Assembly: GCF_001005315.1 (NCBI RefSeq)
Contig: NZ_LBMG01000011.1
Coordinates: 1 to 64,000 of the forward strand
DNA from: Kordia jejudonensis
Lineage (GTDB): Bacteria > Bacteroidota > Bacteroidia > Flavobacteriales > Flavobacteriaceae
Length of the DNA stretch: 64,000 nt
Direction: 5' to 3'
Positions 3,780-28,906 of this stretch are shown one piece after another. Position numbers and translations under genes: made by a program. The notes under the pieces were generated by a model that was not told the origin of the DNA, made no database searches, and was given only the letters and a program-made list of their open reading frames with translations. Within the stretch, counting starts at the first letter, position 1; each line of letters begins with the position of its first letter.

Positions 3780-4685
3780 GTGAGTGCCTTAAAAACCATA
3801 TTATATTTTTCCCTCTTTAAATATCCGTTGACCCGAACTGAAATTTTTCAATTTTCGGATAACACGAATCAAAAGGAGATTGATAGTGAAATTGATTTGC
3901 TATTGGAAAAAGGTGTCATTTATAATTTTGATGGTTTTTATATTGATGTAAATAATCCTGATCGTATAGAACGCAGGTTGAAAGGAAACGAAATGGCAAG
4001 AAACATTATGCCCAAAGCGGTAAAAGTTTCTAGAAAAATTGCCAAATTCCCATACGTAAAAGCGGTTTGTTTATCTGGTGCTTTGTCAAAAGGTTTTTAC
4101 GATGATGAGGGCGATTTTGACTTTTTCATCATTACAAAACCAAATCGTTTGTGGATCGCTAGAACCTTACTCGTTTTGTACAAAAAGATATTTTTACTAA
4201 ACTCTAAAAAATACTTTTGTGTCAACTATTTTATCAGCACAGATCAACTAGAAATTTCAGAACAAAACTTGTTTACTGCCACTGAGATTGCTACACTCAT
4301 TCCATTGTATGGAAAAGATACATTTAAAGATTTCTTGGTTAATAATCAATGGGCTACTCCATATTTTCCAAACAAACCAGCTCCTAAAATGAGTACGATT
4401 AGAGACACTGAAAAAAGTGGTTTCTCTAAGCTGATTCAAAACATATGTAATGGTGCTTTTGGATTAAAAATAGATCAATATCTACAAAAACTTACAATCA
4501 AAAAGTGGCGAAGTAAATTTAAACACTTAGCGCAAGAAGATTTTAATATTGCCATGAAATCAACAAGACATGTATCTAAACATCATCCGCAAAACTATCA
4601 AAACAAGGTAATTACACGACTGAACGAGCGTTACGATGAAGTTATAAAACAGTACAATTTGAAATATCCCGAAAAGCATGCTTGA
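3780..4685 (+). CDS. Nucleotidyltransferase-fold protein
   Basis: This 301-residue protein has a winged-helix-like N-terminus (residues 1-65: FKYPLTRTEIFQF, then a helix ending LLEKGVIY). Next comes a polymerase-beta-type nucleotidyltransferase signature at about 99-117, LSGALSKGFYDDEGDFDFFI, where the two acids of DFDFF take the place of the metal-binding DxD. The start codon is GTG; an ATG 16 bases earlier is out of frame. It opens an operon and overlaps the next gene by 8 bases, so translation is probably coupled to the radical SAM enzyme. Possible roles are nucleotidylation of a glycan precursor or of a partner protein; the substrate is unknown. Confidence 0.7.
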   Translation: MSALKTILYFSLFKYPLTRTEIFQFSDNTNQKEIDSEIDLLLEKGVIYNFDGFYIDVNNPDRIERRLKGNEMARNIMPKAVKVSRKIAKFPYVKAVCLSGALSKGFYDDEGDFDFFIITKPNRLWIARTLLVLYKKIFLLNSKKYFCVNYFISTDQLEISEQNLFTATEIATLIPLYGKDTFKDFLVNNQWATPYFPNKPAPKMSTIRDTEKSGFSKLIQNICNGAFGLKIDQYLQKLTIKKWRSKFKHLAQEDFNIAMKSTRHVSKHHPQNYQNKVITRLNERYDEVIKQYNLKYPEKHA

Positions 4686-6141
4686 TGTTGTTTTTTCACA
4701 CTCGTATTATTATAAGTTTGATGCCAAACAATGGAAAAATCAAACACCTTATCCGCCTTTAGGAACATTGTATGCCGCTTCTTATTTGCGTGAAAACGGA
4801 TATACTGTTGGTGTATTTGACGCCAATCTTTTGGATGATCCAAAAACTATTCAACCTTATTTGGAAGAAAAAAAGCCAAATACATTTGTAATTTACGATG
4901 ATGGCTTTAATTACTTGACAAAAATGTGCTTGACGACGATGCGTGAAGCCGCTTTTGAAATGATTAAAATTGCCAAAAATCTAGATTGTCATGTCATTAT
5001 TTGTAGCTCAGATTCTACAGATCATTATGAAAAATATTTGGCTGCTGGCGCTGATTTTGTCATTCAAGGAGAAGGCGAAATCTCTTTAAAAGAATTGGTA
5101 GATGCTTTATCCAACAATGAAGATACTTCAAAAATAAAAGGATTGGTTTTTGAAAAAGATGGCGAATTTGTCAAGAATCCAAAACATCCTGTATTGCGTA
5201 ATTTGGACGAATTGCCAATGCCAGCTTGGGATTTAATTGACATTGAACCCTATCGAAAAATTTGGGAAAATGGTGGCAATGAATTTACCCTAAATATGGC
5301 AACAACGCGTGGTTGTCCGTTTAAATGTAATTGGTGCGCAAAGCCAATTTATGGAAATCGCTACAACTCGCATTCGCCCGAATACATTACAAAACACATT
5401 AAATATTTGAGTGACACATATAATGTGAATCGTTTTTGGATGTGTGATGATATTTTTGGCTTAAAGCCAAATTGGGTTCAGAATTTTAACAAAGAACTCA
5501 AATCTGCACAACTTTCCATTTCCTATTACATACAAAGTCGCGTTGATTTGTTATTAAAAGAAGATACCATAGAAGCTTTAGCTGAAAGTGGATTGGAAGA
5601 AGTTTGGGTTGGTGCTGAAAGTGGTTCGCAAGCCATTTTGGATGCCATGGATAAAGAAACGAAAGTGGAACAAATTTATGAAGCGACACGCTTATTGAAA
5701 CAAAAAAATGTGCGTGTAGCGTTTTTTATTCAGTTTGGTTATTTGGAAGAAACGAAAGAAGACATTCAAAAAACAATTGACATGATTAAAGAGTTGGTTC
5801 CTGATAATATTGGAGTTTCTGTTTCGTATCCGCTTCCAGGAACTAAATTTTACGATAAAGTCAAAGATGACTTACAATTAAAAGCAAATTGGACAGATTC
5901 CGACGATTTGGCAATGATGTTTAAAGGTACGTACAACACACAATTTTACAGAAAACTACAACGCTACGTTCACAAAGAATTTCGGAAAAGTCAAGCAGTC
6001 CAGAACTTTAAAAAATTCTTTAAAAATCCGTTTTCAATTTCAAAATCAGAGTTACGCTCCATGATTTTGTTAGGATATTATATTCCTTCCGCGTTTGTAG
6101 ATAAGTTGCAATTAAAAAATATGGAGAATACCCATGCATAG
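4678..6141 (+). CDS. B12-domain radical SAM enzyme (1)
   Basis: The protein has 487 residues. Residues 1-150 form a cobalamin-binding-like Rossmann domain, with PPLGTLYAASYL near 25 and GEGE near 131. The radical SAM domain follows, with the 4Fe-4S cluster motif CPFKCNWC at 213-220. The C-terminal 100 residues are helical. The architecture matches BchE/HpnR-type class B enzymes, which methylate or rearrange unactivated carbons. The usual DxHxxG cobalamin ligand is absent: the equivalent site reads DAN. It overlaps its neighbours by 8 bases on each side, upstream with the nucleotidyltransferase and downstream with a methyltransferase, so all three probably act on one pathway. The substrate is unknown; the context suggests a surface glycan or lipid. 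Confidence 0.85.
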   Translation: MLDVVFSHSYYYKFDAKQWKNQTPYPPLGTLYAASYLRENGYTVGVFDANLLDDPKTIQPYLEEKKPNTFVIYDDGFNYLTKMCLTTMREAAFEMIKIAKNLDCHVIICSSDSTDHYEKYLAAGADFVIQGEGEISLKELVDALSNNEDTSKIKGLVFEKDGEFVKNPKHPVLRNLDELPMPAWDLIDIEPYRKIWENGGNEFTLNMATTRGCPFKCNWCAKPIYGNRYNSHSPEYITKHIKYLSDTYNVNRFWMCDDIFGLKPNWVQNFNKELKSAQLSISYYIQSRVDLLLKEDTIEALAESGLEEVWVGAESGSQAILDAMDKETKVEQIYEATRLLKQKNVRVAFFIQFGYLEETKEDIQKTIDMIKELVPDNIGVSVSYPLPGTKFYDKVKDDLQLKANWTDSDDLAMMFKGTYNTQFYRKLQRYVHKEFRKSQAVQNFKKFFKNPFSISKSELRSMILLGYYIPSAFVDKLQLKNMENTHA

Positions 6142-6919
6142 TGATTTTGATATAGCTGCACCACAATACGATGATATTTTCACGTATTCAAATATTGGAA
6201 AAGCACAACGAAAACTTGTCTTTAGGCATATAAATTCGATCATAAAACAAGGTAAAAACCTATCTATTTTAGAATTAAATTGTGGCACAGGCGCTGATGC
6301 AATTGAATTTGCAAAACTAAATCACGATGTAATTGCTACCGATATTTCTTCGGGAATGATTGAAGTTGCAAAAGCAAAACCACATTCGAAAAATTTACAG
6401 TTTAAAGTTCAAGATATTACAACCATTACAAAAGATACATTTGCTAAAAAGTTCGATTTTATTTTTTCAGACTTTGGTGGTATCAATTGTTTATCACAAG
6501 CGCAATTGAAAACATTTTTTCAAACCGCCGCTGATTTATTACAACCAAACGGAAAATTAGCCATTGTATTAATGCCAAAAAATTGTTTATGGGAACGTTT
6601 GTATTTCACCTTAAAAGGCGATAAAACAAAAGCTACCAGACGAAATACAACCGAAAGTGTAGTTGCCAATGTTGATGGCGTTGGTGTAGAAACTTGGTAT
6701 TACAATCCGAAAGATATTGCTGCTTTAGCAACTGATTTTTTTATCACTACTAAAGTAAAACCGATTGGTGTGACGATTCCGCCATCTTATTTAGAACAAT
6801 CGTTTCTAGCTAAATTTCCGATGTTGCCTATTTTCAAAGGATTCGATTCAATTTTGACAGCTTCTTCCTTAGCGAAGTACGCTGATCATTTTTTAATTAT
6901 TTTAGAAAAGAAAGGGTAG
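6134..6919 (+). CDS. Class I SAM-dependent methyltransferase (1)
   Basis: This 261-residue protein has the Rossmann motif I ELNCGTGADAIEFA at about 49-62 and motif II DVIATDIS near 69-76, followed by FSDFGG as the motif IV region. It starts within the last 8 bases of the radical SAM gene. Family members methylate O, N or C atoms of small molecules; the acceptor is not evident here. A heptamer array starts 5 bases after its TAG stop. The class is certain from the motifs; pathway membership is inferred from overlap with its neighbour. Confidence 0.85.
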   Translation: MHSDFDIAAPQYDDIFTYSNIGKAQRKLVFRHINSIIKQGKNLSILELNCGTGADAIEFAKLNHDVIATDISSGMIEVAKAKPHSKNLQFKVQDITTITKDTFAKKFDFIFSDFGGINCLSQAQLKTFFQTAADLLQPNGKLAIVLMPKNCLWERLYFTLKGDKTKATRRNTTESVVANVDGVGVETWYYNPKDIAALATDFFITTKVKPIGVTIPPSYLEQSFLAKFPMLPIFKGFDSILTASSLAKYADHFLIILEKKG

Positions 6920-6923
6920 TGTT

Positions 6924-7099: not shown

Positions 7100-7113
7100 A
7101 GATGTAAATTATT

Positions 7114-7494
7114 ATGGAGAAAAAAAGTTATCAAGACTTAGATATTTATAAAAAAGCTTTCAATTTAAGCTTACAAGTTCATGAAATTTCATTGTCATTG
7201 CCTAAATATGAATTATATGAACAAGGCAGTCAAGTAAGAAGGTCTTCTAAATCAATCACAGCAAATATTGTGGAAGGTTATGGCAGAAATAGATATAAAG
7301 CTGATTTTATTAAATTCTTGGTTTATGCACAGGCTTCTTGTGACGAAACCATAAATCATTTACATTGCATAGCAGAAATTCATAATAAAAAAAATGAACT
7401 GAATCCTATGTTGGAATCATACATAATTTTAGGTAAACAAATCAACAAGTTTATCACATATGTAGATAGAAGTTGGAATACTAAAATAACCTGA
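7114..7494 (+). CDS. Four-helix bundle protein (23S rRNA IVP family)
   Basis: This 126-residue, all-helical protein begins with SYQDLDIYKKAFNLSLQVHE. It continues with the family hallmark EQGSQVRRSSKSITANIVEGYGR at about 43-65, typical of the S23/IVP family. These proteins were first seen in insertions of 23S rRNA genes, but are mostly stand-alone small genes scattered near polysaccharide loci in Bacteroidota. Function is unknown; RNA or nucleic-acid binding has been suggested. It sits between two radical SAM/methyltransferase pairs and probably has its own promoter, so it looks inserted rather than part of the pathway. Confidence 0.88.
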   Translation: MEKKSYQDLDIYKKAFNLSLQVHEISLSLPKYELYEQGSQVRRSSKSITANIVEGYGRNRYKADFIKFLVYAQASCDETINHLHCIAEIHNKKNELNPMLESYIILGKQINKFITYVDRSWNTKIT

Positions 7495-7509
7495 AACCAG
7501 TAACAACCA

Positions 7510-8895
7510 ATGAGCATCATTCTCACACATACTTATTACCTTTTTGAAGATGTGAAAGAACAAAGCATCATGCGTCCATATGCGCCGTTGGGTTTGTTGT
7601 ATATTTCTGCCTATTTGAATGAACATAAAGTAGAAAATCATGTGTACGATGCTACATTTTATTCCAAAGAAGCGCAGTTGCGATTTATTGAAGAAAAACA
7701 ACCAAAAGCGGTTGCTATTTACACCAATTTGATGACAAAAATTAATGTTGTCAAACTGATTGAAATTTTAAAAAATGACGCGCTTTATGGTTTTCCAAAG
7801 ATAATTTTGGGCGGACCCGATATTACTTATAATCTAGAAAATTACCTCAATATTGGTGCCGATTTTTTAATTATTGGCGAAGGCGAACAAACTACCTTAG
7901 AACTCTACAAAGCAATTGTAAACAAAGATGATTTTACCGAAATCCATGGAATTGCATATCTGGAAAATGATGAAGTGGTTAAAACGCCACCGCGAATGCG
8001 CATGAAAAGTCTCAAAGAATTGCCGTTGCCAAACAGAGCTGCAATTCCTGTAGAGAAATACTTGGAAACATGGAAAACACATCACGGCCAAAGTTCTATG
8101 ACGGTAAGTACGCAGCGCGGTTGCCCGTATACATGCAAATGGTGTAGTACGGCTGTTTATGGACAAAGTTATAGAAGACGTCCGCCAAATATGGTTGCCG
8201 AAGAGTTAAAAATGTTGAAGGAAACCTACAATCCTGATAGTATTTGGTTTGTAGACGATGTATTTAGTGTAAGTCACAAATGGATTGAACTTTTTCATGA
8301 AGAAGTTATAAAGCAAGATGCGATAATTCCGTTTGAATGCATTACACGCGCTGAACGCTTGAACGATCATATTTTGCAATTACTAAAGGAAGCAGGTTGT
8401 TATCGCATTTGGATTGGCGCCGAAAGTGGTTCACAAAAAATAATTGACGCTATGGATCGTCGTGTAGATGTAGATGTCGTTAAAACTGCCATTCAAAAAA
8501 CCAATGAACTTGGCATGGAAACGGGAACATTTATCATGGTGGGTTATCCTGGCGAAGACGAACAAGACATCAGCGAAACCATTCAATATCTAAAAGCGGC
8601 AAATCCGACACATTTTACCATTACTGTTGCGTATCCAATTAAGGGAACATCTTTGTACAATGAAATTGAAGACAAAATTACGGTACAACCAGCATGGAAT
8701 ACGTCAACAGATCGTGAAATTGATTTTAAACGTACATATTCTCGCAAATTTTATGATTTTGCAGTGCGTCATATTGTGAATGAAGTAAATTATAATAAGG
8801 AAAAACTTAAAGGAAAAAATCGTAGCTTGCTGGCATCTGTAAAACTAAAAACAAAATCAATTCTAGCTCAAACTGGAATGAAAATTTACAAATGA
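7510..8895 (+). CDS. B12-domain radical SAM enzyme (2)
   Basis: The 461-residue protein is built like the enzyme at 4678. An N-terminal cobalamin-like domain contains YAPLGLLYISAYL near residue 25 and GEGE near 124. The radical SAM domain has the cluster motif CPYTCKWC at 205-212. The site where DxHxxG is expected reads DAT, so the lower cobalamin ligand seems to be missing. It overlaps the next methyltransferase gene by 4 bases (ATGA). It is clearly a paralogue of the first enzyme, sharing sequence features such as WVGAESGSQ versus WIGAESGSQ. It probably carries out a second, related modification of the same product; the substrate is unknown. Confidence 0.85.
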   Translation: MSIILTHTYYLFEDVKEQSIMRPYAPLGLLYISAYLNEHKVENHVYDATFYSKEAQLRFIEEKQPKAVAIYTNLMTKINVVKLIEILKNDALYGFPKIILGGPDITYNLENYLNIGADFLIIGEGEQTTLELYKAIVNKDDFTEIHGIAYLENDEVVKTPPRMRMKSLKELPLPNRAAIPVEKYLETWKTHHGQSSMTVSTQRGCPYTCKWCSTAVYGQSYRRRPPNMVAEELKMLKETYNPDSIWFVDDVFSVSHKWIELFHEEVIKQDAIIPFECITRAERLNDHILQLLKEAGCYRIWIGAESGSQKIIDAMDRRVDVDVVKTAIQKTNELGMETGTFIMVGYPGEDEQDISETIQYLKAANPTHFTITVAYPIKGTSLYNEIEDKITVQPAWNTSTDREIDFKRTYSRKFYDFAVRHIVNEVNYNKEKLKGKNRSLLASVKLKTKSILAQTGMKIYK

Positions 8896-9644
8896 GATTA
8901 GATTTTAGCCGCATTACCCAACAACAAAATGTATATTATTTAACGCCCGAAGATGCTGGTTTTTCTCAGTATTATCTCGCTGTGCGCGAAAAAGAACAAC
9001 GAATTTTAACAGATCCAGAAGTTCGAAAATTACCTTATTTGGAACGTGATGAATGGCCATATCGTATCAAATCTACCGAACGTTTTTTATCCTATATAAG
9101 TAAAAAAACTGAAACGTTACATATGTTGACAATCGGTTGTGGAAATGGCTGGTTTTCTAATAAAATTGCAGAAGTTTCTTCTAAAAACGAAGTTATTGGT
9201 TTAGATGTAAATCGTGATGAATTGGAACAAGCCGCGCGTATTTTTAAAACTAAAAATCTTCATTTTGTGTATGCTGATATTTTCAACGTTTCCGATATGT
9301 TTGAAGCCAAATTTGACATCATTACACTCAATGGCGCGATTCAATATTTTAAAGATTTTAAAGAGTTAATGACACTTTTAACCTCTTTTTTAACACCAAA
9401 TGGCGAAATTCATATTATTGACAGTCCTTTTTATGCAACAGATGAAATTCCTGCAGCCAAACAACGGACACAGGAATATTATGAATCAATTGGAGTTCCT
9501 GAAATGACTAAAAATTATGTACATCATGATAAAAAATTAGTCGCAGATTTTGACATCTTATACACATACAAACGAAATATTATTCACAAGATTTTAGGTA
9601 AAAAAGAGTCTCCTTTTTCTTGGTATCGATTTATAAAAAAGTAA
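8892..9644 (+). CDS. Class I SAM-dependent methyltransferase (2)
   Basis: The 250-residue protein has motif I LTIGCGNGWFSNKIAE near 77-92, motif II EVIGLDVN near 97-104, and a motif IV region FDIITLNGAIQYF near 137-149. The long N-terminal segment before the Rossmann fold (about 75 residues) may recognise the substrate. It is translationally coupled to the radical SAM gene before it, and the SGNH gene follows 3 bases after its stop. It is only loosely similar to methyltransferase 1, so the two pairs are not a simple tandem duplication. Confidence 0.83.
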   Translation: MRLDFSRITQQQNVYYLTPEDAGFSQYYLAVREKEQRILTDPEVRKLPYLERDEWPYRIKSTERFLSYISKKTETLHMLTIGCGNGWFSNKIAEVSSKNEVIGLDVNRDELEQAARIFKTKNLHFVYADIFNVSDMFEAKFDIITLNGAIQYFKDFKELMTLLTSFLTPNGEIHIIDSPFYATDEIPAAKQRTQEYYESIGVPEMTKNYVHHDKKLVADFDILYTYKRNIIHKILGKKESPFSWYRFIKK

Positions 9645-9647: not shown

Positions 9648-10748
9648 ATGGCACGTAAAAGCTTCGTTAAAAAATTAAAATATTACAGCATTTTTACAAT
9701 CATCCTATTGATTATTGCTGAAATTATATTGTCACTACTTGAAGTGGTGCCAACCAATTACTATGTAAATACACCAAACTCAGGATTTACTTGGAAAATC
9801 AATCCAGATGAAATCACAGGAATTCAACAAGATTCAGAAGTTTCTTTTGACGAATTGGGCGCGCGTTCTATTTCTAATTACGAAGATGCCAATCATAAAA
9901 TTGTTGTCTTTGGTGGAAGTACGACGGCATGTTTTGCGCTGACACAAGAAAAAACCTGGCCAGCATTGCTGGAAAAGGAATTGGGCGATTCCTATTGGGT
10001 TGGAAATTTTGGAAGACCTGGAAACAATAGCAGTCATCATGCATTACAGTTTAAGTATACGCTTGACAAACCGCAATTGAGTGATGCAAAAACGGTAGTA
10101 GTGATGTTAGGTGTGAATGATTTTGTTGGATATCTAATTTCTCCAGATCGCTATTTGCATCTTCCTGAAAACAACTTGAAACGCTTTGCTTTTCAGCATG
10201 TTCCAAATGATCATCTGCCATTTTACAAACGACTGACTTTATATCAGTTAGCATCAAGGGCCAAACAAAATATTACGTTTTATTTTAAACATAAAGATTA
10301 CTTAACGCAAACATCTTTAGATATCAGAGCGTTAAAAAAGAAGTCAAAAATTGTATCCGAATTGCCAAATTTAGAAGCTGGTTTAGCTCACTATGAGAAA
10401 AATATTCTTGATCTTATTGAACAAGCAAAAGCTAAAAATATTAGACTCGTTTTTGTGACGCAAGCAACTATGTGGCGACCAGATTTAGAACCAAAATATG
10501 AGGAATTAATGATTACAAGCGGATTTGAGAATAACGAAGCATTTTACAGTACACCAGCACTTTACGAAGGTATGGAAGTATTTAATGAACGTTTAAAAGA
10601 AATTTGCAAACAACAAAATATTGCTTGTATCGATTTACAATTGCCAAAAACTACAGAATCTTTTTATGATGATTTTCATTTTAATGAATCTGGAGCTAAA
10701 TTGACTGCGGAACAACTTTCAGAAGCATTGCGCAAAGTATTGGAATAG
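9648..10748 (+). CDS. Membrane-anchored SGNH hydrolase-like protein (1)
   Basis: The protein has 366 residues. One membrane helix lies at about 13-30 and the rest is predicted periplasmic. All SGNH blocks are visible: GGSTT (Ser, about 86-90), the Gly block GRPGNNS near 123, GVND (Asn, near 151) and DDFH near 342. The family includes esterases and the acyl- or acetyltransferases AlgJ, AlgX and PatB-like proteins that decorate exopolysaccharides. The anchor plus the glycan context favours O-acetylation or deacetylation of the product made here. It is the last gene of the 3780-10748 operon, with a palindrome and a minisatellite after it. Confidence 0.82.
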   Translation: MARKSFVKKLKYYSIFTIILLIIAEIILSLLEVVPTNYYVNTPNSGFTWKINPDEITGIQQDSEVSFDELGARSISNYEDANHKIVVFGGSTTACFALTQEKTWPALLEKELGDSYWVGNFGRPGNNSSHHALQFKYTLDKPQLSDAKTVVVMLGVNDFVGYLISPDRYLHLPENNLKRFAFQHVPNDHLPFYKRLTLYQLASRAKQNITFYFKHKDYLTQTSLDIRALKKKSKIVSELPNLEAGLAHYEKNILDLIEQAKAKNIRLVFVTQATMWRPDLEPKYEELMITSGFENNEAFYSTPALYEGMEVFNERLKEICKQQNIACIDLQLPKTTESFYDDFHFNESGAKLTAEQLSEALRKVLE

Positions 10749-11023: not shown

Positions 11024-12451
11024 TTACGCTAACTGTTGTTTCTTAAAGAAGGTATCTACAATTTTCTTTTCAACTGGCGCTTTAAAATATTTTCGCTTGC
11101 AACGCCATCTTGCAATCAGTTGTAATGGTTTGTATATCCACTTTTGATTCGAATAGGCGAATTTTAGGTAGAATTTAAATTTTTCAAAGAAATCGTACTT
11201 TTCTTTACTCACCCAAGGTCCTGACGAACCTACAAAGTCAAAATCTGACCATTCATGAACGGTTTCAGGCAATTTATAACCTTCTTTCACTACATTATCT
11301 GTAATGGTCGTTCCTGGATAGGGTTTAAAGTAAAAAATTGGTGTGTGAAAATTTGGATGCATGCTATTCAAATCGAGCGCAACTTTTACCGTTTCTTCAA
11401 TACTTTTGTCCGTTTCTTCTGGGAAACCAACAATAAACGGAAACTGTACAGCAATCCCTAAATCTTTACAACGTTCGGCACACATGTACACTTGCTCAAC
11501 TTTGATATCTTTTTTGAGCCAATTCATCATTTCTTGCGAACCAGATTCGACTCCAATTAACAAACGACGCAATCCTGATTTTGCACAAATTTTAAAATCT
11601 TCCACGGACATTCTAGAACCTTGATCGGCACGCATCGTAGCTGCCCACGTAATATTTAGTCCTTTTTCAATCATGCGTTCAGAAATTTCAATCACACGAT
11701 CTCGATACGTGAAATAGGTTTCGTCTTGCAAATTCAAATCGGTAAACTGATATTTTTCATGAAGTTCCGCCAGTTTATTTACCATAATTTCTGGCGAAAT
11801 TGCCGTCCATTTTCTATTATATACAAAAGGATCTGCACAAAAAGTACATCTAAAATAGCAACCTGTCGATGAAATATAATCAAGTTGTCTTCTTCCTTTC
11901 TTTTCAAAGTATTTTTCTACATCAATCAACTCATAATTAATGTCTGCAAAGGTATCCATGGCAACAATGACACGTGGCGGATTTTTAATTATTTCGCCTT
12001 CTTCATTTCTGTAACAAATTCCTTTTACAGCAGAAACATCTCCAGTAGTAGCATACGCTTCCACCAATTCTTTAAATGTATCTTCTCCTTGTCCTTGTGC
12101 CGTCACATCAATACAAATTTCGTCTTTCAAGGTTTGTTTTGGAAATAATGAAGTATGCCATCCGCCCCAAATTATAGGAATATCTTGACGCATCTTTTTT
12201 ACAGCCTGCGTTACGTTTAGCGCATCTTTTATAGGTCTTCCCGTTAACACCGTTGTTCCAAAACACAAAGCTTCATCAATGTGTTTTTCAATAGTTTCCA
12301 ACGGTTTTTCATCAATTCGACCATCTACAATAATGACTTCGTATTTTTCAGGGTCTAACACAGAACCAATGGCAAGCAAAGCAAGTGGCATGTCAAAAAA
12401 CACGGCTATTGGATTGTATAATAAGATTTTATGCTTTTTCAAAACGGGCAA
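11024..12451 (-). CDS. B12-domain radical SAM enzyme (3)
   Basis: The 475-residue protein has an N-terminal cobalamin-like domain (PLALLAIGSVL near 22, QGQGED near 126) and a radical SAM domain with the cluster motif CYFRCTFC at 198-205. The DxHxxG position reads DGR. The C-terminal part is basic and helical, as in enzymes 1 and 2. Unlike those, it has no methyltransferase neighbour; it is paired on the minus strand with a GT2 glycosyltransferase 21 bases upstream. It is a member of the B12-rSAM class that modifies lipids and glycans; the substrate is unknown. Its 3' end touches the minisatellite. Confidence 0.83.
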   Translation of the reverse strand: MPVLKKHKILLYNPIAVFFDMPLALLAIGSVLDPEKYEVIIVDGRIDEKPLETIEKHIDEALCFGTTVLTGRPIKDALNVTQAVKKMRQDIPIIWGGWHTSLFPKQTLKDEICIDVTAQGQGEDTFKELVEAYATTGDVSAVKGICYRNEEGEIIKNPPRVIVAMDTFADINYELIDVEKYFEKKGRRQLDYISSTGCYFRCTFCADPFVYNRKWTAISPEIMVNKLAELHEKYQFTDLNLQDETYFTYRDRVIEISERMIEKGLNITWAATMRADQGSRMSVEDFKICAKSGLRRLLIGVESGSQEMMNWLKKDIKVEQVYMCAERCKDLGIAVQFPFIVGFPEETDKSIEETVKVALDLNSMHPNFHTPIFYFKPYPGTTITDNVVKEGYKLPETVHEWSDFDFVGSSGPWVSKEKYDFFEKFKFYLKFAYSNQKWIYKPLQLIARWRCKRKYFKAPVEKKIVDTFFKKQQLA

Positions 12452-12472: not shown

Positions 12473-13213
12473 CTATTTAAATATTTGAAATGACTTTAGT
12501 TTCTTTTTATGCAAATAATACTGAATTGATACCTTCAAAACACCCAAACCATACGTTACGCTTCGTTGAAAATTGATTGATGAACTTTCGCTTGAATAGG
12601 TTGTGGGACAAGTAATTTCGGCAATTTCAAAACCTTTATTGAAAATTTGACAAATCATTTGATTATCAAAAATAAAATCATCTGAATTGTGTTCCAAATG
12701 CAACGAATTTAATACTTCCGCAGAAAAAGCTCTGAAACCTGTATGGTATTCGGATAACTTTTGACCAATTACAATATTTTGAAATAATGTCAAAAAACGA
12801 TTCGCAATGTACTTATACATAGGCATGCCGCCGCGCAACGCACCTTTGCCCAAAATTCTTGATCCCATCACAACAGGATACACATCATTTGCAATCAAAT
12901 ATGCCATAGAATGTATCAATTTGGGCGTGTATTGATAATCAGGATGCAACATTACTACAATATCGCCATCTAACGATAATGCTTTTTGATAACAGCTTTT
13001 TTGATTCGCACCATATCCTTTATTTTTATCATGCTTTATCACATATTTAATCCCTAATGATTTAGCAACTGCTAAGGTTTCATCTGTACTATTATCGTCT
13101 ACCAAAACCACTTCATCTACAATATCGAACGGAATTTCGTTGTACGTTTTTTGCAACGTTTCCGAAGCATTATAGGCAGGAAGTACAATAATTATTTTCT
13201 TAGAATTGATCAT
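12473..13213 (-). CDS. Family 2 glycosyltransferase (DPM1/DPG-synthase-like)
   Basis: This 246-residue GT-A enzyme has VLPAYNASETL near 10-20, the nucleotide-binding VLVDDNSTDET near 36-46, MLHPDYQYTP near 88-97 and a MGSRILGKG loop near 118. These match the polyprenyl-phosphate glycosyltransferase group (dolichyl-phosphate mannose/glucose synthase-like). No C-terminal membrane helices are seen. Polyprenyl-phosphate sugars made by such enzymes feed GT39 membrane transferases, two of which are in this locus (13314 and 23008). It is the first gene of a two-gene minus-strand operon with the radical SAM enzyme, and diverges from 13314. Confidence 0.87.
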   Translation of the reverse strand: MINSKKIIIVLPAYNASETLQKTYNEIPFDIVDEVVLVDDNSTDETLAVAKSLGIKYVIKHDKNKGYGANQKSCYQKALSLDGDIVVMLHPDYQYTPKLIHSMAYLIANDVYPVVMGSRILGKGALRGGMPMYKYIANRFLTLFQNIVIGQKLSEYHTGFRAFSAEVLNSLHLEHNSDDFIFDNQMICQIFNKGFEIAEITCPTTYSSESSSINFQRSVTYGLGVLKVSIQYYLHKKKLKSFQIFK

Positions 13214-18748: not shown

Positions 18749-19798
18749 ATGAAAAAAACAAGGAAACATATCGTATTTTTAACACCAGGTTTTGCAGCGT
18801 CAGAAAATGATTCTACTACAATTCCTGCGTTGCAAGTGTTTCTCAAAAATATACGAAAAGCATTGCCGCATGCAAAGCTGACACTACTTTCGTTTCAGTT
18901 TCCTTTTACAGAGAAAAGTTACGATTGGCACGGCATAGAAATAATTCCGCTAAACGGGCAAAATAAACGTTTGAAGAAATTGTGGACTTGGAAAAAAGCC
19001 GCAAAAACACTGCAAAAACTTCACGCAAAACAGAAAATTGATACGATTCATAGTTTTTGGATTGGCGAATGCGCACGAATTGGACAGCAATTTGCAGACA
19101 AATACAATAGCAATCATATAGTGACTGTTATGGGACAAGATGCTGTTGTAAAAAATACATTTGCTAATTATTTGATGCATTCGAAAGCAACAATTGTAAC
19201 GCTTTCAGAGAATCACAAAGTAGCTTTGAAAAAAACGTACGGTTTAAATGCTACTATTATTCCTTGGCATTTGGACGTTACCGAATTTCCAGCTTTACAA
19301 GAAAATACCATTGATATTTTGGGTGTCGGTTCGCTAAATACGATTAAGAATTACGAAGATTTCATCGATGTTATTTCTTCTTTAACAAAAACGTATAAAA
19401 ACCTCAACGTTGCTATTATTGGCGATGGCGCATTGCAAAAAGAACTCAAAACTAAGATTCAGAATTTACAGTTAGAAAATACAATTTCACTTCTTGGAAA
19501 GCTACCGCGAACGGATGTTTTTCAAAAAATGGCAACATCAAAAATCTTATTGCATACAAGCTTGTACGAATCGTTTGGATTTGTATTTTTAGAAGCATTA
19601 TACTCAGGAATGCACATTGTATCGTACAACGTAGGCTTGGCAAAAGCCTCCAAACATTGGTCTGTATGTAATCAGAAAGCTGAATTGATTGAAGCTTGTG
19701 AAATAGTGTTTTCTCGTGAAAACGAACAGAAAGAACGCATAACATTGAGTACAGAAACTGAAACCATCAACGCATATTTATCTTTGTATCATGCGTAA
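18749..19798 (+). CDS. Family 4 glycosyltransferase (GT-B)
   Basis: The 349-residue protein is a two-domain GT-B enzyme. The N-terminal domain runs from VFLTPGFAASENDST. The C-terminal domain has ILGVGSLNTIKNYEDFI near 190, IIGDGALQKEL near 224 and the nucleotide-sugar motif ESFGFVFLE (E-x7-E) near 274-282. It is a retaining transferase for cytosolic glycan assembly. Its ATG follows the last palindrome of the array by 1 base, so the leader, if transcribed from the left, would fold directly against the start. It overlaps the flippase gene by 8 bases. Confidence 0.87.
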   Translation: MKKTRKHIVFLTPGFAASENDSTTIPALQVFLKNIRKALPHAKLTLLSFQFPFTEKSYDWHGIEIIPLNGQNKRLKKLWTWKKAAKTLQKLHAKQKIDTIHSFWIGECARIGQQFADKYNSNHIVTVMGQDAVVKNTFANYLMHSKATIVTLSENHKVALKKTYGLNATIIPWHLDVTEFPALQENTIDILGVGSLNTIKNYEDFIDVISSLTKTYKNLNVAIIGDGALQKELKTKIQNLQLENTISLLGKLPRTDVFQKMATSKILLHTSLYESFGFVFLEALYSGMHIVSYNVGLAKASKHWSVCNQKAELIEACEIVFSRENEQKERITLSTETETINAYLSLYHA

Positions 19799-20939
19799 AT
19801 TGATTACTATAGGTGTAAACACAATTCAAGGATTTGCAAGTCCTGCTTTCAACTTTTTGATTGTCGTATTTGGTGTAAAAATTTTCGGGAAATCAGATTG
19901 GGCAAGTTTGATCAACGTGATGATTTGGGTATTTTTTATTTGCTTCCTTTTTGGCTGGGGAAATCGTGATTATTTGCTTCGAAAGTATAGTGAAGCACCC
20001 TCAAAAATGTATCATGCTTTTTTTAGCAACTTCTTTTCACGTTGTTTGCTACTGCCTTTTTCTTTACTATTATTTGTATTTTTTCCTGTACAAATAGCCA
20101 TTTGGACAATTGCACTGATTGTACTAATTTTTATGTACGCATCGTTGAGCACATTAGTGGTATATCATCAAAAGTTTGGCGCACAATTGATCGCGGAAAT
20201 TATCGGTTTTACCATTATCTTTGGAAGTATTTTTTATGTTGAAACGTTTCATCTTGAGACTTTTTTACAACTGTATGTCGTTTCAGTTTTGGTAAAATTA
20301 ATTGTACTTAGCAGCAAACTAAAACTTTGGAATGCACCTTTTTCTATAAAAATTTCTATCCAAGAATTTAAAGCCGGATTGCCATTTTTTATTCTTGGAC
20401 TGAGTGGCTGGCTACTTTCAAAAGTAGATATTTATGCTGTAGATTTCTACTTAGAAAAATCACAGTTAGCCGAATATCAATTATTGATTACTGCTTTTTT
20501 AATGTTACAAGCATTAGCGGCTTATATTACCATTCCGTTTACAAAACATGTGTATCGCGTTTCCGACACAGTCGTTCGCAAAATAAAATACAAACTCTAT
20601 GCAGTTTCGTTACCACTTACCATTTTTGGCGGATTCTTCATTTGGTGGATCATGGAAAATTTTGTCGAATTAGGATTTAGCTATGAACACTATATTCTTG
20701 GCGGATTGATTGCTTTGCCTTGTTATTTTTACACCTTAAATATCATGGAACTTATGAAAAGTCATCAAGAACGTACCGTTATTTATATTGCCTTTTTAGG
20801 TTTTTTGGTGTGTGTAAGCTTTATTTTACTTCTTATTGAAACGTACGAACTTTTTGGTGTGTTACTTAGCGTATGCATTACGCAATGGGTTGTACTGATT
20901 GTATATAAGTTGCACTGGAAATTTTCAAACAAACGTTAA
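19791..20939 (+). CDS. Polysaccharide flippase-like membrane protein
   Basis: The 382-residue protein has about ten to twelve hydrophobic helices and very few acidic residues in them. FNFLIVVFGVKIFGKSDWASL at the start and YAVDFYLEKSQLAEYQLLIT near 220-240 are typical of the Wzx/oligosaccharide flippase (MATE-MVF) superfamily. It is slightly shorter than the usual 420-480 residues. Its overlap with the GT4 gene supports a role in moving the lipid-linked glycan across the inner membrane. No Wzy polymerase or Wzz chain-length protein is seen in this window. Confidence 0.75.
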   Translation: MRKLITIGVNTIQGFASPAFNFLIVVFGVKIFGKSDWASLINVMIWVFFICFLFGWGNRDYLLRKYSEAPSKMYHAFFSNFFSRCLLLPFSLLLFVFFPVQIAIWTIALIVLIFMYASLSTLVVYHQKFGAQLIAEIIGFTIIFGSIFYVETFHLETFLQLYVVSVLVKLIVLSSKLKLWNAPFSIKISIQEFKAGLPFFILGLSGWLLSKVDIYAVDFYLEKSQLAEYQLLITAFLMLQALAAYITIPFTKHVYRVSDTVVRKIKYKLYAVSLPLTIFGGFFIWWIMENFVELGFSYEHYILGGLIALPCYFYTLNIMELMKSHQERTVIYIAFLGFLVCVSFILLLIETYELFGVLLSVCITQWVVLIVYKLHWKFSNKR

Positions 20940-20983: not shown

Positions 20984-21817
20984 CTATTTTTTTCTTCTAA
21001 AGAAATTCAACACTTTACTAATAAAGTCATCATTGATACCAAACGTACCTTTAATCCATGTGTAAATAGCAATGAGTTTTTTATCTAACCAAATTAAAAC
21101 CGACTTGAATCCATCATTTGGACGCGCACGATAATTGGTGGATCGTCGTTTGAACGAACCTGTTTTTTCTTCTGTAAAATAATACAAAGCAATTGATTTT
21201 CGAGTTGTATCTGCTGGACAAGTTATCGGATCGGGAAAGCCGTGATACGAATCTTCATCGGTGTTAAATATGACAATTCGATTAAAAATTGGCGCGATTT
21301 TTACCGCACATTTCGACATATCTTTTTCCCATAATTCTAAATCGCCACCATAAGAAGTTTGCCAGTTTTTATTGAGATATACCAATACATTTACACGACG
21401 TCGCCATGTTTTTTTGTGTGGATGCACGGTAAAGTCAGCATGAATATTCAAATATCCGCCATTTTCACTTTGATGAATTCCGCCACCTTCAATGGTAGTA
21501 TCAGGCAAAAGGTTAGAAATTCCTGTCAATTGTTCCAAATAGCGAATAAATTCGGGCGAATTCAACTCTTTGATAACGCCATCGCGAATAAATTCAGGAA
21601 TCAATTCTAGCTTATTCAGTCCGTGTTTTTTTTCATTTACATGTACATAATGAATCCAACCTTCATCTTTAATTTTAGGAAAAACTGCCAATGCTTTTTC
21701 GGCTGCTTCCGACGTTAAACAATCGTCTAAAATAATATGTGGATACGGCGCCGCGGATTGATAACTTTGTATATCGTCAGTTAAAGTGGCTTTTCTTTTT
21801 GAATAATCAAAAATCAT
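20984..21817 (-). CDS. 2-oxoglutarate/Fe(II) oxygenase (prolyl-4-hydroxylase-like)
   Basis: The 277-residue protein shows the full double-stranded beta-helix set. The first Fe ligands are HAD in YLNIHADF near 123-130, the distal His is in DSYHGF near 187-192, and the 2-oxoglutarate-binding Arg is in TRKSIALYYF near 203-212. Family members hydroxylate protein side chains or small molecules. In surface-glycan loci they are found as hydroxylases of sugars or acyl chains, but the target is unknown. It is transcribed alone, opposite to the flanking genes, converging on the flippase gene and diverging from the SGNH gene. Confidence 0.87.
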   Translation of the reverse strand: MIFDYSKRKATLTDDIQSYQSAAPYPHIILDDCLTSEAAEKALAVFPKIKDEGWIHYVHVNEKKHGLNKLELIPEFIRDGVIKELNSPEFIRYLEQLTGISNLLPDTTIEGGGIHQSENGGYLNIHADFTVHPHKKTWRRRVNVLVYLNKNWQTSYGGDLELWEKDMSKCAVKIAPIFNRIVIFNTDEDSYHGFPDPITCPADTTRKSIALYYFTEEKTGSFKRRSTNYRARPNDGFKSVLIWLDKKLIAIYTWIKGTFGINDDFISKVLNFFRRKK

Positions 21818-23007: not shown

Positions 23008-24603
23008 TTAATTTGTTACCAAATACATTACACCTTTTCCTGGCAACCAACGAGAATATGTATATTCTTGAAGCACTTTTTGATCTTCCGCAGGTTTAAA
23101 AACTAAGGTGTAGACAGGTGTCACGTTTTCCCACCATTTTTCTTGATCTTCTGAAAAGAAATTCCATGTAACATATTCTACGCCTCCTTGTATTTGATTT
23201 TTAGGAATGGTTTCGGTCAATTCGTTTAATACATTCCAACGCAGACGATTCCAAGATAAATGATCGTGTACTGCGCAGACTGAAAATAAAGTAAATATTC
23301 CGATACAGGTATACGTAAGATATTGATATACCTTTTTGGGCACTTTTACAGCTGCATTTGTTCCTAAAAACACAATTATTATTGGAAACAATGGCAGTAA
23401 ATATCTATCATAGACACCCACAATTAAAAATGGCGTGAGATAGACTACTGAAAATACAAATGCAAACACTACGATGGAAGATACATTTTTCCTTTTCAAT
23501 ACCGAAAAAATCAATCTTTTTATGTGAAACATCAACGTTACACTAGAAAAAACTCCGATCGCTGTAATAATTTGCCAAAGTAATTTTGGCGCTCTCGGAT
23601 CAGGACTTGTGGTAAAGTTTCCTGCATGATCTGCTAATGTTGTTGGTCCTACTCCGAAATCGATCCAAATATTATCTAAACTTGGAATTTCTCTTCCTGT
23701 TCTTATTAAAAAATACGTCACCAATACTGTCCAAATAATCGCGGATATTTTATAGCCTTTAAATGTGTATCGATTGAAATATAGCAAGTGTATTGGCACT
23801 AATAAAAATCCTATATACGCCATTGATCTAAAGAAATACGAAACGGAATTTAGAAAGATTCCCGTATCTACATGAATGATGGTATCTAACATCAAATTGA
23901 ACTTGGTGTTGTACCGATCTTGTAACAAATCATTCGCTTCCATTATGTAGGAGAATAGTAATGAAAACATCAATAACGCGAGTAATGGAAAAACAGCTTT
24001 TATCAAATGTACACGTGTGCGCTTTTTGACTATTATGATTGTAATGAACCAAACTACGGGGAAAATCCAAGCCAATTGCCGAATGAGAAACATCCAATAA
24101 CAAAAAACGACGGCTAACAGTAAAGGTTGCCATTTGTCTGTTTGTAACGCTTTCGCGAAGAAATAAAACGCCCAAATGGTGACACAATAAAAAGGCACAT
24201 CGGTCATGAACGAAAATGATAAGGATAAGAATATCGGATTCATCATACATAACAATACACCAATTAAGGTGATCCAACGTGAAATATTTGCGAGTTTACA
24301 GAGTTCGTAAATTCCGATGAGTGTAGCAAATCCCATGACTAAGGTTGACCAACGCAAAACTGTAAAGGAAAAACCAAAGATTTTAGTGAATACATAGCCC
24401 CAATACACATGTCCCACCAACGTCATTTCGCCCCAATTGTACAATTTCAAATAGCCTTCTTCCACCAAGGTTTTGACTGATTTCCCGTAACACCAATCGT
24501 CATTCAATGGGAAATCTCCAGCAGGATTAATGATTGCAATGATAAGCAACCACAACACCAATAATCCTAAATGGTCTTTATATTCTTTGAGGAAACTATT
24601 CAT
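23008..24603 (-). CDS. GT39-like membrane glycosyltransferase (2)
   Basis: The 531-residue protein has about eleven membrane helices and a soluble C-terminal domain. The first periplasmic loop carries FPLNDDW near 31-37, the acidic pair expected for the catalytic site of ArnT/PMT-type (GT-C) enzymes. It overlaps the upstream 144-residue gene by 8 bases, which in turn lies 2 bases after the SGNH gene, giving a three-gene minus-strand operon. It presumably transfers a sugar from a polyprenyl-phosphate carrier at the outer face of the inner membrane. Confidence 0.82.
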   Translation of the reverse strand: MNSFLKEYKDHLGLLVLWLLIIAIINPAGDFPLNDDWCYGKSVKTLVEEGYLKLYNWGEMTLVGHVYWGYVFTKIFGFSFTVLRWSTLVMGFATLIGIYELCKLANISRWITLIGVLLCMMNPIFLSLSFSFMTDVPFYCVTIWAFYFFAKALQTDKWQPLLLAVVFCYWMFLIRQLAWIFPVVWFITIIIVKKRTRVHLIKAVFPLLALLMFSLLFSYIMEANDLLQDRYNTKFNLMLDTIIHVDTGIFLNSVSYFFRSMAYIGFLLVPIHLLYFNRYTFKGYKISAIIWTVLVTYFLIRTGREIPSLDNIWIDFGVGPTTLADHAGNFTTSPDPRAPKLLWQIITAIGVFSSVTLMFHIKRLIFSVLKRKNVSSIVVFAFVFSVVYLTPFLIVGVYDRYLLPLFPIIIVFLGTNAAVKVPKKVYQYLTYTCIGIFTLFSVCAVHDHLSWNRLRWNVLNELTETIPKNQIQGGVEYVTWNFFSEDQEKWWENVTPVYTLVFKPAEDQKVLQEYTYSRWLPGKGVMYLVTN

Positions 24604-25030: not shown

Positions 25031-25032
25031 TT

Positions 25033-26154: not shown

Positions 26155-26272
26155 AACTGTTTCTTTGGTCGTTGGTGTGATTTCAACAAATATACAGTCT
26201 CTTCGAAAAGAATTTATACGAAATATGAAAAAATAAGCCATGCTAACATTTCTTTTGCTATTACATTTATAG

Positions 26273-26398
26273 TTCACAACAAAATTTATATTGCATGAAA
26301 AATTAAGAATCATAAAAGTAGCTGCAGCGCATCGTGAACGAGTTGCCAATGCGAATTTTAGTGCTGTTTATCAATATTTTACGCCCAAAGTAAAATAA
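26273..26398 (+). pseudogene. Short coding-like fragment, probably a gene remnant
   Basis: After a TAG at 26270-26272 the frame reads to TAA at 26396-26398. The last part (AAAHRERVANANFSAVYQYF) looks like a real protein C-terminus rather than random translation. There is no ATG. A TTG at 26291 could give 35 residues. It lies antisense to the doubtful N-terminal extension of the SGNH gene. I do not recognise the parent family. The rest of the interval up to 26717 is A/T-rich and shows no gene; it must hold the promoter of the radical SAM gene at 26718. Confidence 0.25.
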
Positions 26399-26717
26399 AA
26401 GTAGACCGATAGAAACATTTGTAAGAAGCTGTAAAATAGTAAAAATTCACATTCAAAAGTTAGCAAACTAAGTCACTTAACTTCTTTATACAGTATTAAA
26501 AAAAATGAATTTTATTGAATTGTTGTTTTACATACAAGAGTAAATCTTCAACAAAGTATTCAATTTAGATTCACTTCAGATAGATGTCGTGTTTTTTACA
26601 CTTAAATTGCAAATTTGATCATGTATTTCCCGTTTAGATTTGTAGATTTACAACATTTTAAAGTGCGTTTTGTCAAAACTTCAAATTGACTCGTAAAAAT
26701 TGAAGCATATTTAATTC

Positions 26718-28238
26718 ATGGGAAATAAAATCATCATATTCAATCCGAGAAGCGCGAATGCAAAGCATCGTTTGCCAAATACCATTATTCAGGTTGGCGC
26801 GGCAATTCACGGAAAGTATGACTACGTTTTTGTAGATGGAAACATGGAAACCGATCCTTGGGAAAAGATTTCAGGATATTTTGCTACTGGCGAATTCAAG
26901 TATTTCTGTCTCACAGTAATGCCTGGACCGCAATTGAAACAAGCGATTCCGTATGCAAGAAAGATTAAAGAATTGTATCCTGATGCGATCAATATTTGGG
27001 GCGGATATTTTGCATCCAACCAATATAAAGTATGCTTAAATTCAGGTTATGTTGATTACATTATCAATGGTCCTGGCGATAATACATTTCCAAAATTATT
27101 AGATTATATAGAAGGAAAAAGTGATGAGAAATTAACACTCATCCGCAATTTGATTTTTAAAGATGAAGAAGGTAAGATTGTGCAAACCGTAAAAGAAGCA
27201 CTACTCGATCAAGATTCATTACCACCATATCCATACGAATATTTTAATACGTTTTATCCGCTAGAAAATTATTTGGCAAAGACATTTATGGGACAACGAA
27301 CTTTTGCGTATCATTCTAGTATGGGTTGCCCGTTTAGTTGTTCTTTTTGTGCCGTGGTGCCGATTTACAATGCAAAATGGAAGGCAAAAGCTGCTTCCAC
27401 TATTTATAAAGATTTAAAGTATTTTAAAGAAAAGTATAATATTGATGCCGTAGAGTTTCATGACAATAACTTTTTTACCTCTCGTAAACGAGTGATGGAA
27501 TTTTCCAAGCTCGTCATGGATGATAATATTGAATGGTGGGGCGAAGGACGAATTGATACAATTAATAAATATTCTGACGAAGAACTGCATTATATGCGAA
27601 AAGCAGGTTGTCGCATGATGTTTTTAGGTGCTGAAACGGGAAATGACGAAGTGTTGAAGCAAATGAACAAAGGTGGCACACAATCGGGTCAAATGATTAA
27701 GGATTTTGTAAAACGCATGAAAGATGTAGACATTATTCCTGAACTGTCGTTTGTATTAGGATTGCCAGGACCAAACGAGAAGAAAGTATACGAGCAAATT
27801 TTATGGGATATCAATTTTATTCGTGAAATTAAATCGATCAACGCTGACGCAGAAATTATCATTTACTTATACAGTCCTGTTCCAACGGAAGGTTCTGAGT
27901 TGTACCAACAAATTGTAGACGCAGGATTTTCTTTTCCATCAAAATTAGAAGAATGGATTGAACCAAGTTGGGAAAAGTTCGATTTGCGAAGAAATCCGTT
28001 AACGCCTTGGTTGAAACCGTATATGATTGACAAAATTCAAAATTTTGAAACGGTATTGAATGGATATTATCCAACTGCTTCCGATTTTAGAATCAAAGGC
28101 TACAAAAAAGCATTGCTAAAATTAGTTTCAGGCTATCGTTTTAAATATGGCTGGTATAAATTTCCGTATGAAATCAAGGTTTTACACAAAATTTGGAAAT
28201 ATCGTCAACCAGAAATTGAAGGCTTCTACTCAGAATAA
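26718..28238 (+). CDS. B12-domain radical SAM enzyme (4)
   Basis: The 506-residue protein has an N-terminal cobalamin-like domain (FVDGNMETDP near 37, where DxHxxG would be, reads DGN) and a radical SAM domain with CPFSCSFC at 204-211. Later come FLGAETGNDEVL near 311 and the conserved ELSFVLGLPGPN near 343. It is more distant from enzymes 1-3 in the N-terminal domain, which lacks the PLGLLY helix. A methyltransferase gene follows after 11 bases, repeating the radical SAM/methyltransferase arrangement seen at 4678 and 7510. The substrate is unknown. Confidence 0.83.
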   Translation: MGNKIIIFNPRSANAKHRLPNTIIQVGAAIHGKYDYVFVDGNMETDPWEKISGYFATGEFKYFCLTVMPGPQLKQAIPYARKIKELYPDAINIWGGYFASNQYKVCLNSGYVDYIINGPGDNTFPKLLDYIEGKSDEKLTLIRNLIFKDEEGKIVQTVKEALLDQDSLPPYPYEYFNTFYPLENYLAKTFMGQRTFAYHSSMGCPFSCSFCAVVPIYNAKWKAKAASTIYKDLKYFKEKYNIDAVEFHDNNFFTSRKRVMEFSKLVMDDNIEWWGEGRIDTINKYSDEELHYMRKAGCRMMFLGAETGNDEVLKQMNKGGTQSGQMIKDFVKRMKDVDIIPELSFVLGLPGPNEKKVYEQILWDINFIREIKSINADAEIIIYLYSPVPTEGSELYQQIVDAGFSFPSKLEEWIEPSWEKFDLRRNPLTPWLKPYMIDKIQNFETVLNGYYPTASDFRIKGYKKALLKLVSGYRFKYGWYKFPYEIKVLHKIWKYRQPEIEGFYSE

Positions 28239-28249
28239 TTCGTAGCAAT

Positions 28250-28906
28250 ATGTTTAAGAAACTTAAAAAGATCATATTTCCAGTTGCGAAATTTTTCTTT
28301 GATAAATACACGCTAAAGCAACGAAGTTACACGTACGAAGATATTACGGTACAAATTAGTGCAGAAGTATTTCCACCACATTTTACGATAAGCACCAAAA
28401 TCCTTTTAGAATATATAAAACCATTAAATTTAACCAATAAGCACTTTTTAGAACTCGGTTGTGGCTCTGGAATCATTTCATTGTTTGCGGCTTCCAAAGG
28501 TGCCAATGTAACTGCTTCCGACATCAATCATGTGGCAATTCATGAACTTGAAAAAGCGGCTGTTGCAAATGCTATTTCTTTACAAGTTGTGTATTCTGAT
28601 TTGTTTGAAAATCTAGCAGAGCAGACATTTGACTACATCATCATCAATCCACCATATTATCCAAAAGCACCAAAAAATACCAAAGAGCGCGCATGGTTTT
28701 GCGGAGAAAATTTTGAGTATTTTGAAAAATTATTTACACAACTTCCACAACACATTGCGCCCAATACGTGGATGATTTTATCCGAAGATTGCGAAATAGA
28801 ACATATAAAAAAGTTAGCTGCAAAAAATGGACTTTCTTTTGAAGTGATTTTAGAAAAAAGCGTCGTAAAGGAGAAAAACTATATCTTTAAGATTCAAAAA
28901 TCATAA
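28250..28906 (+). CDS. Class I methyltransferase with NPPY motif (3)
   Basis: The 218-residue protein has motif I FLELGCGSGIISLFAASKG near 65-83, TASDINHVAI as motif II, and IINPPYYP near 126-133. The NPPY motif is typical of N-methyltransferases acting on amides or bases (PrmC/HemK and related). The first 60 residues are basic. It lacks the HemK N-terminal bundle and is too short for PrmC, so a small-molecule amine or amide in the pathway is more likely. It follows the fourth radical SAM gene by 11 bases and is followed after 5 bases by the acyltransferase. Confidence 0.83.
   Translation: MFKKLKKIIFPVAKFFFDKYTLKQRSYTYEDITVQISAEVFPPHFTISTKILLEYIKPLNLTNKHFLELGCGSGIISLFAASKGANVTASDINHVAIHELEKAAVANAISLQVVYSDLFENLAEQTFDYIIINPPYYPKAPKNTKERAWFCGENFEYFEKLFTQLPQHIAPNTWMILSEDCEIEHIKKLAAKNGLSFEVILEKSVVKEKNYIFKIQKS

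Follow-up and report, generated by a model that had tools for sequence, protein, structure and literature searches.

The window examined here, namely the first 64,000 nucleotides of contig NZ_LBMG01000011.1 of Kordia jejudonensis (RefSeq assembly GCF_001005315.1, forward strand), carries an island of glycan-type genes in which four genes encode B12-domain radical S-adenosylmethionine (SAM) proteins, designated rSAM1 to rSAM4. Two of them are part of a fixed gene set in which a putative nucleotidyltransferase gene (NT), rSAM1, a class I methyltransferase gene (MT1) and rSAM2 succeed one another, and this NT-rSAM1-MT1-rSAM2 set is an operon core across Bacteroidota and Ignavibacteriota. The module constitutes a defined set of genes that occurs in Bacteroidota which are named and in part cultured, and its genetic logic is clear, NT always accompanying rSAM1 and the MT1 subtype being matched to rSAM2; its product is probably an unusual cell-surface sugar.

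The NT-rSAM1-MT1-rSAM2 core

The steadiest partner of rSAM1 is the NT gene that overlaps its start. When 395 evenly drawn genomes of the phylum were searched with an NT profile at E 1e-10 and an rSAM1 profile at E 1e-60, NT was found in 30 genomes and rSAM1 in 27, all 27 of the latter having NT, and the three NT matches without rSAM1 were the weakest or broken ones. A preliminary description of the island had given methyltransferases as the partners of three of the rSAM genes, which stands in part, and had made no mention of NT. At the family level rSAM1 was present in 19 of 299 genomes, which indicates a patchy distribution of the module; in many genomes, scoring in the profile searches was limited to the first 4 or 5 candidates.

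Gene order was read from 80 loci (the named loci), the best of 559 confirmed stretches, which are weighted to near relatives and come from Flavobacteriaceae, Saprospiraceae, Lewinellaceae, Chitinophagaceae, Cyclobacteriaceae and Ignavibacteria. In 76 of these loci NT immediately precedes rSAM1 and in 75 MT1 immediately follows it, the overlaps being mostly 8 or 11 bases long; since the family models derive from the same loci, counts within them are partly circular. In the 26 loci of the even sample (one of which, L175, repeats the contig of L163) MT1 was found in 23 and NT in 25, and in 15 additional loci of the family sample NT was directly upstream in every case. Open reading frames (ORFs) were called mechanically, longest first, and in L180 and L194 rSAM1 was concealed by another ORF. 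One flavobacterium-typical locus, L136, stands under a metagenome-assembled genome titled Bifidobacterium breve and is likely mislabelled or contaminated. In L107, L117 and L206 an additional gene of 313 amino acids (aa) lies between rSAM1 and MT1, a crude SAM-motif pattern matching the L107 and L117 copies.

Within the genus, a profile of the four rSAM proteins (E 1e-20; 80 genomes, G000 and relatives) matched in 20 genomes. All ten Kordia congeners have rSAM1 and rSAM2 and nine have rSAM3 and rSAM4, with the island gene order kept and the insert genes differing; congener G008 is without rSAM3, rSAM4, MT4, FkbM and 2OG, all together. The rSAM genes and GT2 are the best-conserved genes of the island, with median identities among congeners of 92.8 (rSAM1), 87.6 (rSAM2), 94.9 (rSAM3), 94.1 (rSAM4) and 90.7% (GT2), the methyltransferases reaching 81.5 (MT1), 73.7 (MT2) and 78.4% (MT4). 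Kordia algicida (G009; L050-L051) is the only species in which about 25 kb separate rSAM2 from MT1, and a gene of the 23S-IVP type adjoins this insertion.

The surroundings of the core are of a glycan type also beyond the genus. In the order-level relatives G054 and G071 it adjoins O-antigen-ligase-type (Wzy_C) and Wzz genes, and, by the models built from the 80, genes for glycosyltransferases, flippases, exporters or deacetylases or of a capsule family occur in 56 of the 62 named loci longer than 17 kb and in 17 of the 22 such loci of the even sample.

Coupled switching of MT1 subtype and rSAM2

MT1 consists of two subfamilies, A and B (tree support 0.965), to which loci were assigned by tree clade. 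In 98 loci plus the window (n=99), rSAM2 is present in 70 of the 74 with type A and in none of the 25 with type B. The distant rSAM2-like gene of L166, a type B locus (25% identity), was set to absent by hand. Along the rSAM1 tree there are 12 changes of MT1 type, 15 of rSAM2 presence and 16 of the joint state, meaning that most of the changes in the two coincide. A test of independent pairs on this tree (n=12), from which L154, L171 and L190 were left out for missing downstream sequence, gave 11 concordant pairs, 1 tie and 0 discordant ones, or 10, 2 and 0 with L166 counted as having rSAM2; one of the four type A exceptions, L094, in which rSAM2 lies about 25 kb away on the same contig behind an insertion, was set to present by hand. 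Both trees were made with FastTree and have some weak forks.

The family sample served as a follow-up, 4 of its 15 loci repeating earlier ones and 11 being new. Eight of the new loci have rSAM2, all eight with a type A MT1, and the three without rSAM2 (two of one genus) have no MT1 and carry an MT2-family gene directly behind rSAM1. The matching of MT1-A and rSAM2 suggests that both are tied to one substrate or product. Moreover, since the MT1 subtype tracks rSAM2 and MT1 usually precedes it (61 of 69 cases), the partner of rSAM2 is likely MT1 rather than MT2, which follows rSAM2 in just 20 of 65 non-edge cases. On the latter count an obligate pairing of rSAM2 with MT2 was rejected. Directly after rSAM2, 12 of the 65 non-edge cases have a member of a lipoprotein-like family (L145:15132-16253 and relatives) that is matched by no Pfam model.

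Methyltransferase partners of the radical SAM genes

The preliminary description had set a methyltransferase gene behind three of the rSAM genes, and its coordinates and spacings for these pairs proved exact: rSAM1 and MT1 overlap by 8 bases, rSAM2 and MT2 by 4, and 11 bases separate rSAM4 from MT4. The fourth had been paired with GT2, and rSAM3 does lie 21 bases downstream of GT2, which is read first on the minus strand; GT2 is directly upstream of rSAM3 in 4 of 9 named cases. The coupling that had been proposed is real, a same-strand gene of an MT family coming next after 24 of 42 rSAM genes and after 7 of 317 other genes in the even sample, after 23 of 40 versus 6 of 303 once the training-set locus is removed, and after 107 of 166 versus 22 of 995 in the named loci, with genes taken as independent in all of these counts. 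Chance adjacency was rejected on these counts and on the gene order in the named loci. The picture of a repeated unit of one rSAM gene with its own methyltransferase fits in part: it does not extend to rSAM2 and MT2, and rSAM4 has a same-strand MT-family gene next in 18 of 24 non-edge cases, though of varying family (MT4 in 14 cases, a gene of the MT2 family in 3 and one weakly similar to MT1 in 1).

The methyltransferases had been described as not being close copies of each other, in agreement with identities of 29% over 120 residues (MT1/MT2) and 30% over 135 (MT2/MT4) and with the lack of a BLASTP match between MT1 and MT4 at E 1e-3. MT1, MT2 and MT4 are class I methyltransferases of different kinds; the fourth methyltransferase of the island is the FkbM gene.

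Origin and structure of the radical SAM proteins

Among the 85 proteins of a quick tree, to be read with a long-branch warning that concerns rSAM3 above all, rSAM4 forms one clade (support 99), 42 of 43 rSAM1 rows fall in one clade (99) and 19 of 21 rSAM2 rows in another (100), the strays being one row labelled rSAM1 and two labelled rSAM2 (L166 and L173). rSAM1 and rSAM2, which share 32% identity, are sisters (97), and rSAM3 groups with rSAM4 under the same warning. By these sequence comparisons rSAM1, rSAM2 and rSAM4 are old paralogues in separate clades and not recent copies, in line with the earlier view that no simple tandem duplication is involved.

All four proteins are above the Pfam cut-off for Radical_SAM and contain the CxxxCxxC motif, which is also present in every relative inspected (82/82 for rSAM1, 66/66 for rSAM2, 8/8 for rSAM3 and 17/17 for rSAM4). 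The B12-binding family (cut-off 32.1 bits) is matched above cut-off by rSAM2 and rSAM3 and significantly, yet below it, by rSAM1 (30.3) and rSAM4 (25.1). Eight stretches of the host genome match this family, four of them being the island rSAM genes and the others one rSAM-type frame on contig 124 and three large proteins elsewhere. No match of rSAM1 was obtained among plasmids at E 1e-40.

An AlphaFold model of rSAM1 (pLDDT 86.7) matches structures with bound cobalamin along the greater part of its length, the top fold matches being the cobalamin-type radical SAM proteins MgmA (the best), OxsB, TsrM, AprD4, TokK and CysS. Such models and matches are structural evidence and say nothing on activity; as they span methylases (MgmA, TsrM, TokK, CysS) and non-methylases, the similarity cannot settle the reaction of rSAM1. 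Among NCBIfam models, scores for BchE (TIGR02026, cut-off 481.35) were 166.1, 144.7, 136.8 and 109.6 bits for rSAM1 to rSAM4, respectively; rSAM3 scored 154.0 bits for HpnJ (TIGR03471, cut-off 577.6), rSAM2 153.5 bits for the PhpK-type P-methylase (TIGR04479, cut-off 600), and rSAM1 78.2 bits for B12_rSAM_oligo (TIGR04295, cut-off 400), the other rSAM proteins scoring lower in this last test. The identities rSAM1 = BchE, rSAM2 = PhpK and rSAM3 = HpnJ were rejected on these scores far below the cut-offs.

The NT protein has the motif GS-x(n)-DxD, with D112 and D114 unchanged throughout alignments of 26 and of 46 members, and the motif pattern for Pol-beta-type nucleotidyltransferases matches 69 of 78 NT members. 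Against Pfam NTP_transf_2 it scores 17.3 bits (E 0.0063), the gathering score of 21 not being reached, and against PDB sequences the best E was not below 0.39.

A possible pathway and its alternatives

With about even confidence, we propose that the island serves the synthesis and export of a surface glycan or glycolipid, with NT-rSAM1-MT1-rSAM2 as tailoring core and rSAM4-MT4 and GT2-rSAM3 as accessory pairs. From the gene order, co-occurrence, coupled switching and folds presented above we infer the following substrate, chemistry and order of steps. NT would move a nucleotide onto a building block or its carrier, and rSAM1 would take a hydrogen from an unactivated carbon of the nucleotide-tagged substrate, resulting, with cobalamin, in methyl addition or carbon-skeleton rearrangement. 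MT1 would carry out an ordinary methylation of a group on the same molecule or on the product molecule, and rSAM2 would work on the same molecule as MT1, which is the proposed reason why type A MT1 and rSAM2 are gained and lost together. A lipid-linked sugar formed by GT2 may be the substrate of rSAM3, and rSAM4-MT4 may alter another unit, after which glycosyltransferases would put the unit together for export. Precedents are found in the cited passages of PMC8158854, where Fom3 methylates 2-HEP-CMP (nucleotide tag), and of PMC12583986, on HpnI/HpnK/HpnJ (lipid-linked sugar). A bolder version, which we put forward tentatively and consider rather improbable, is that of a widespread and so far undescribed pathway of Bacteroidota in which a Pol-beta NT tags a sugar or lipid-linked intermediate to allow one or two cobalamin rSAM proteins to methylate it or rebuild its carbon skeleton, and an MT subfamily is matched to the second rSAM, yielding branched or rearranged surface sugars in aerobes by a new route.

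Several observations weigh against the proposed glycan pathway. The fold match of NT is weak (no Foldseek E ≤0.001), and the strand beside its DxD has an invariant C147 and N149 and no acid (the position not being placed on a solved structure), which leaves NT activity putative. None of the NCBIfam families displayed gets to its cut-off for the island proteins, the literature searches returned no substrate or product of the module, and the class of B12-domain radical SAM proteins is not always methylating, BchE being the example in the cited passage of PMC13142503. In addition, rSAM1 and NT occur without MT1 in six of 104 loci (L138, L156, L161, L184, L191 and L195). The preliminary description had named rSAM homologues without a methyltransferase neighbour as what would refute its reading, and this minority of six loci has them. 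In L156 and L161 genes that read as glycan-type lie ahead of NT; no glycan gene of the models was found near the other four.

It could be argued that the glycan setting is right and that the rSAM proteins deoxygenate, epimerise, oxidise or contract sugars, as AprD4, BchE, OxsB and HpnJ do, only the class I methyltransferases methylating. This is possible, if somewhat improbable: AprD4 and OxsB are among the structural and sequence neighbours of rSAM1, the best NCBIfam matches are BchE for rSAM1 and rSAM4 and HpnJ for rSAM3 (all below cut-off), and the class does more than methylation in the cited passages of PMC13142503 and PMC8992657, yet the methylases MgmA, TsrM, TokK and CysS match equally, with MgmA at the top. 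We consider it unlikely that the island makes no structural glycan but a secondary metabolite, secreted or in the membrane, for whose assembly glycosyltransferases and an exporter are borrowed. The structural relatives of NT (weak matches) do include aminoglycoside-modifying nucleotidyltransferases, an ABC exporter family is present in 29 of the named loci (best 80 of 559) and antibiotic-pathway enzymes are among the B12-rSAM structures matched by rSAM1; however, no family of peptide or polyketide synthases turned up among the window genes scanned with Pfam, all 10 congeners have the island, and Wzz and Wzy_C stand beside the core in the two relatives mentioned above.

That NT and the methyltransferases are non-biosynthetic, with NT regulating through protein nucleotidylation and the gene order reflecting shared control only, is very improbable, since the perfect co-occurrence of NT with rSAM1 alone and the way in which the MT1 subtype switches along with rSAM2 agree better with a pathway. 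Chance has a practically negligible probability, as has a recent event in which a single rSAM-MT pair was duplicated in tandem: rSAM1 and rSAM2 are indeed neighbours and sister groups, but their low identity and separate, phylum-wide clades, on which such a duplication was rejected, and the gene order kept in many genera speak against it.

Relation to known systems

For the large subclass of cobalamin radical SAM enzymes, few reactions are known. While the enzyme classes of the module are known already, the fixed NT-rSAM1-MT1-rSAM2 set, its subtype matching and its product were not found in the open-access literature searched, which is no proof of absence; the preliminary description, too, knew of no described pathway with such a set. 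The fosfomycin enzymes Fom1 and Fom3 resemble the module in that a single pathway combines a nucleotidyltransferase with a radical SAM enzyme of the cobalamin type, and the substrate of a Kordia rSAM protein is by analogy perhaps nucleotidylated in the same manner. They differ in that theirs is a phosphonate pathway without glycan genes, and the Fom1 nucleotidyltransferase presumably has a different fold from that of the Kordia NT. HpnI-HpnK-HpnJ, which make the hopanoid cyclitol ether, share with the island a glycosyltransferase, a deacetylase and a B12-type rSAM acting on a lipid-linked amino sugar, and HpnJ is the top match of rSAM3, although at 154 of the 577.6 bits required. TIGR04295 is a named, functionally open family whose name suggests oligosaccharide operons, but the score of rSAM1 is far from its cut-off; we know of no NT-MT core in it. 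AprD4 and OxsB belong to the fold class of rSAM1 and have as substrates an aminoglycoside precursor and a nucleotide, but share 17-19% identity with it in the structural alignment, and their gene neighbours differ from those of the Kordia module. Finally, MT4 resembles HemK/PRK14968-type methyltransferases and has NPPY, although it is below every cut-off displayed and the motif is present in 7 of 12 members of its family.

For a product hunt, the module offers genes that can be deleted one by one in a defined way and, as the class of product to look for, surface glycans or glycolipids. If the inferred chemistry is true, nucleotide-tagged radical C-methylation would join bacterial surface-sugar biosynthesis.

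Organization of the island

The view of the locus as a glycan island is supported by its conserved, glycan-type gene set (Table 1). No sugar-nucleotide synthesis enzyme was detected among the window proteins scanned by Pfam.

Table 1. Genes of the island in the window and the evidence for their assignment.
Gene or product	Position	Strand	Evidence
NT, winged-helix and Pol-beta-type nucleotidyltransferase (putative), 301 aa	3780-4685	+	stop overlaps rSAM1 start by 8
rSAM1, B12-domain radical SAM	4678-6141	+	Pfam; pLDDT 86.7 model; 10/10 congeners
MT1, class I methyltransferase, subfamily A	6134-6919	+	Pfam; family alignment; subfamily tree
rSAM2, B12-domain radical SAM	7510-8895	+	Pfam; own clade; MT1 before it in 61/69
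MT2, class I methyltransferase, variable partner	8892-9644	+	Pfam; after rSAM2 in 20/65 non-edge cases
SGNH/GDSL-family protein	9648-10748	+	Pfam Lipase_GDSL_2
rSAM3, B12-domain radical SAM, HpnJ-like	11024-12451	-	Pfam; top NCBIfam match HpnJ, 154 bits (cut-off 577.6)
GT2 glycosyltransferase, upstream of rSAM3	12473-13213	-	Pfam Glycos_transf_2; AglJ/PpgS-like matches below cut-off
PMT_2-type membrane glycosyltransferase	13314-14747	+	Pfam 26.0 bits, just below cut-off of 26.1
Polysaccharide deacetylase	14804-15790	+	Pfam
GNAT acetyltransferase	15798-16724	+	Pfam
FkbM-type methyltransferase	16725-17558	+	Pfam
GT4-type glycosyltransferase	18749-19798	+	Pfam Glycos_transf_1
Membrane protein, flippase-like from sequence reading only	19791-20939	+	no Pfam or NCBIfam family matched
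2OG-Fe(II) oxygenase	20984-21817	-	Pfam
PMT_2-type membrane glycosyltransferase	23008-24603	-	Pfam
rSAM4, B12-domain radical SAM	26718-28238	+	Pfam; own clade, support 99; 9/10 congeners
MT4, class I methyltransferase with NPPY	28250-28906	+	Pfam MTS; HemK-like matches below cut-off; NPPY in 7/12 family members
Acyltransferase 3	28912-29877	+	Pfam
SGNH-like protein, weak match	29890-31089	+	Pfam below cut-off

Two small ORFs lie between genes of the island, one of the 23S-IVP type with a four-helix fold (7114-7494) and the other of the GIY-YIG type (17729-18097), with homologues in the islands of 2 and 3 of the 10 congeners, respectively; they look like inserted genes with no relation to the pathway. 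A protein encoded at 32121-33122, which on reading resembles another SGNH protein and has no Pfam match, is found at the island flank in all 10 congeners.

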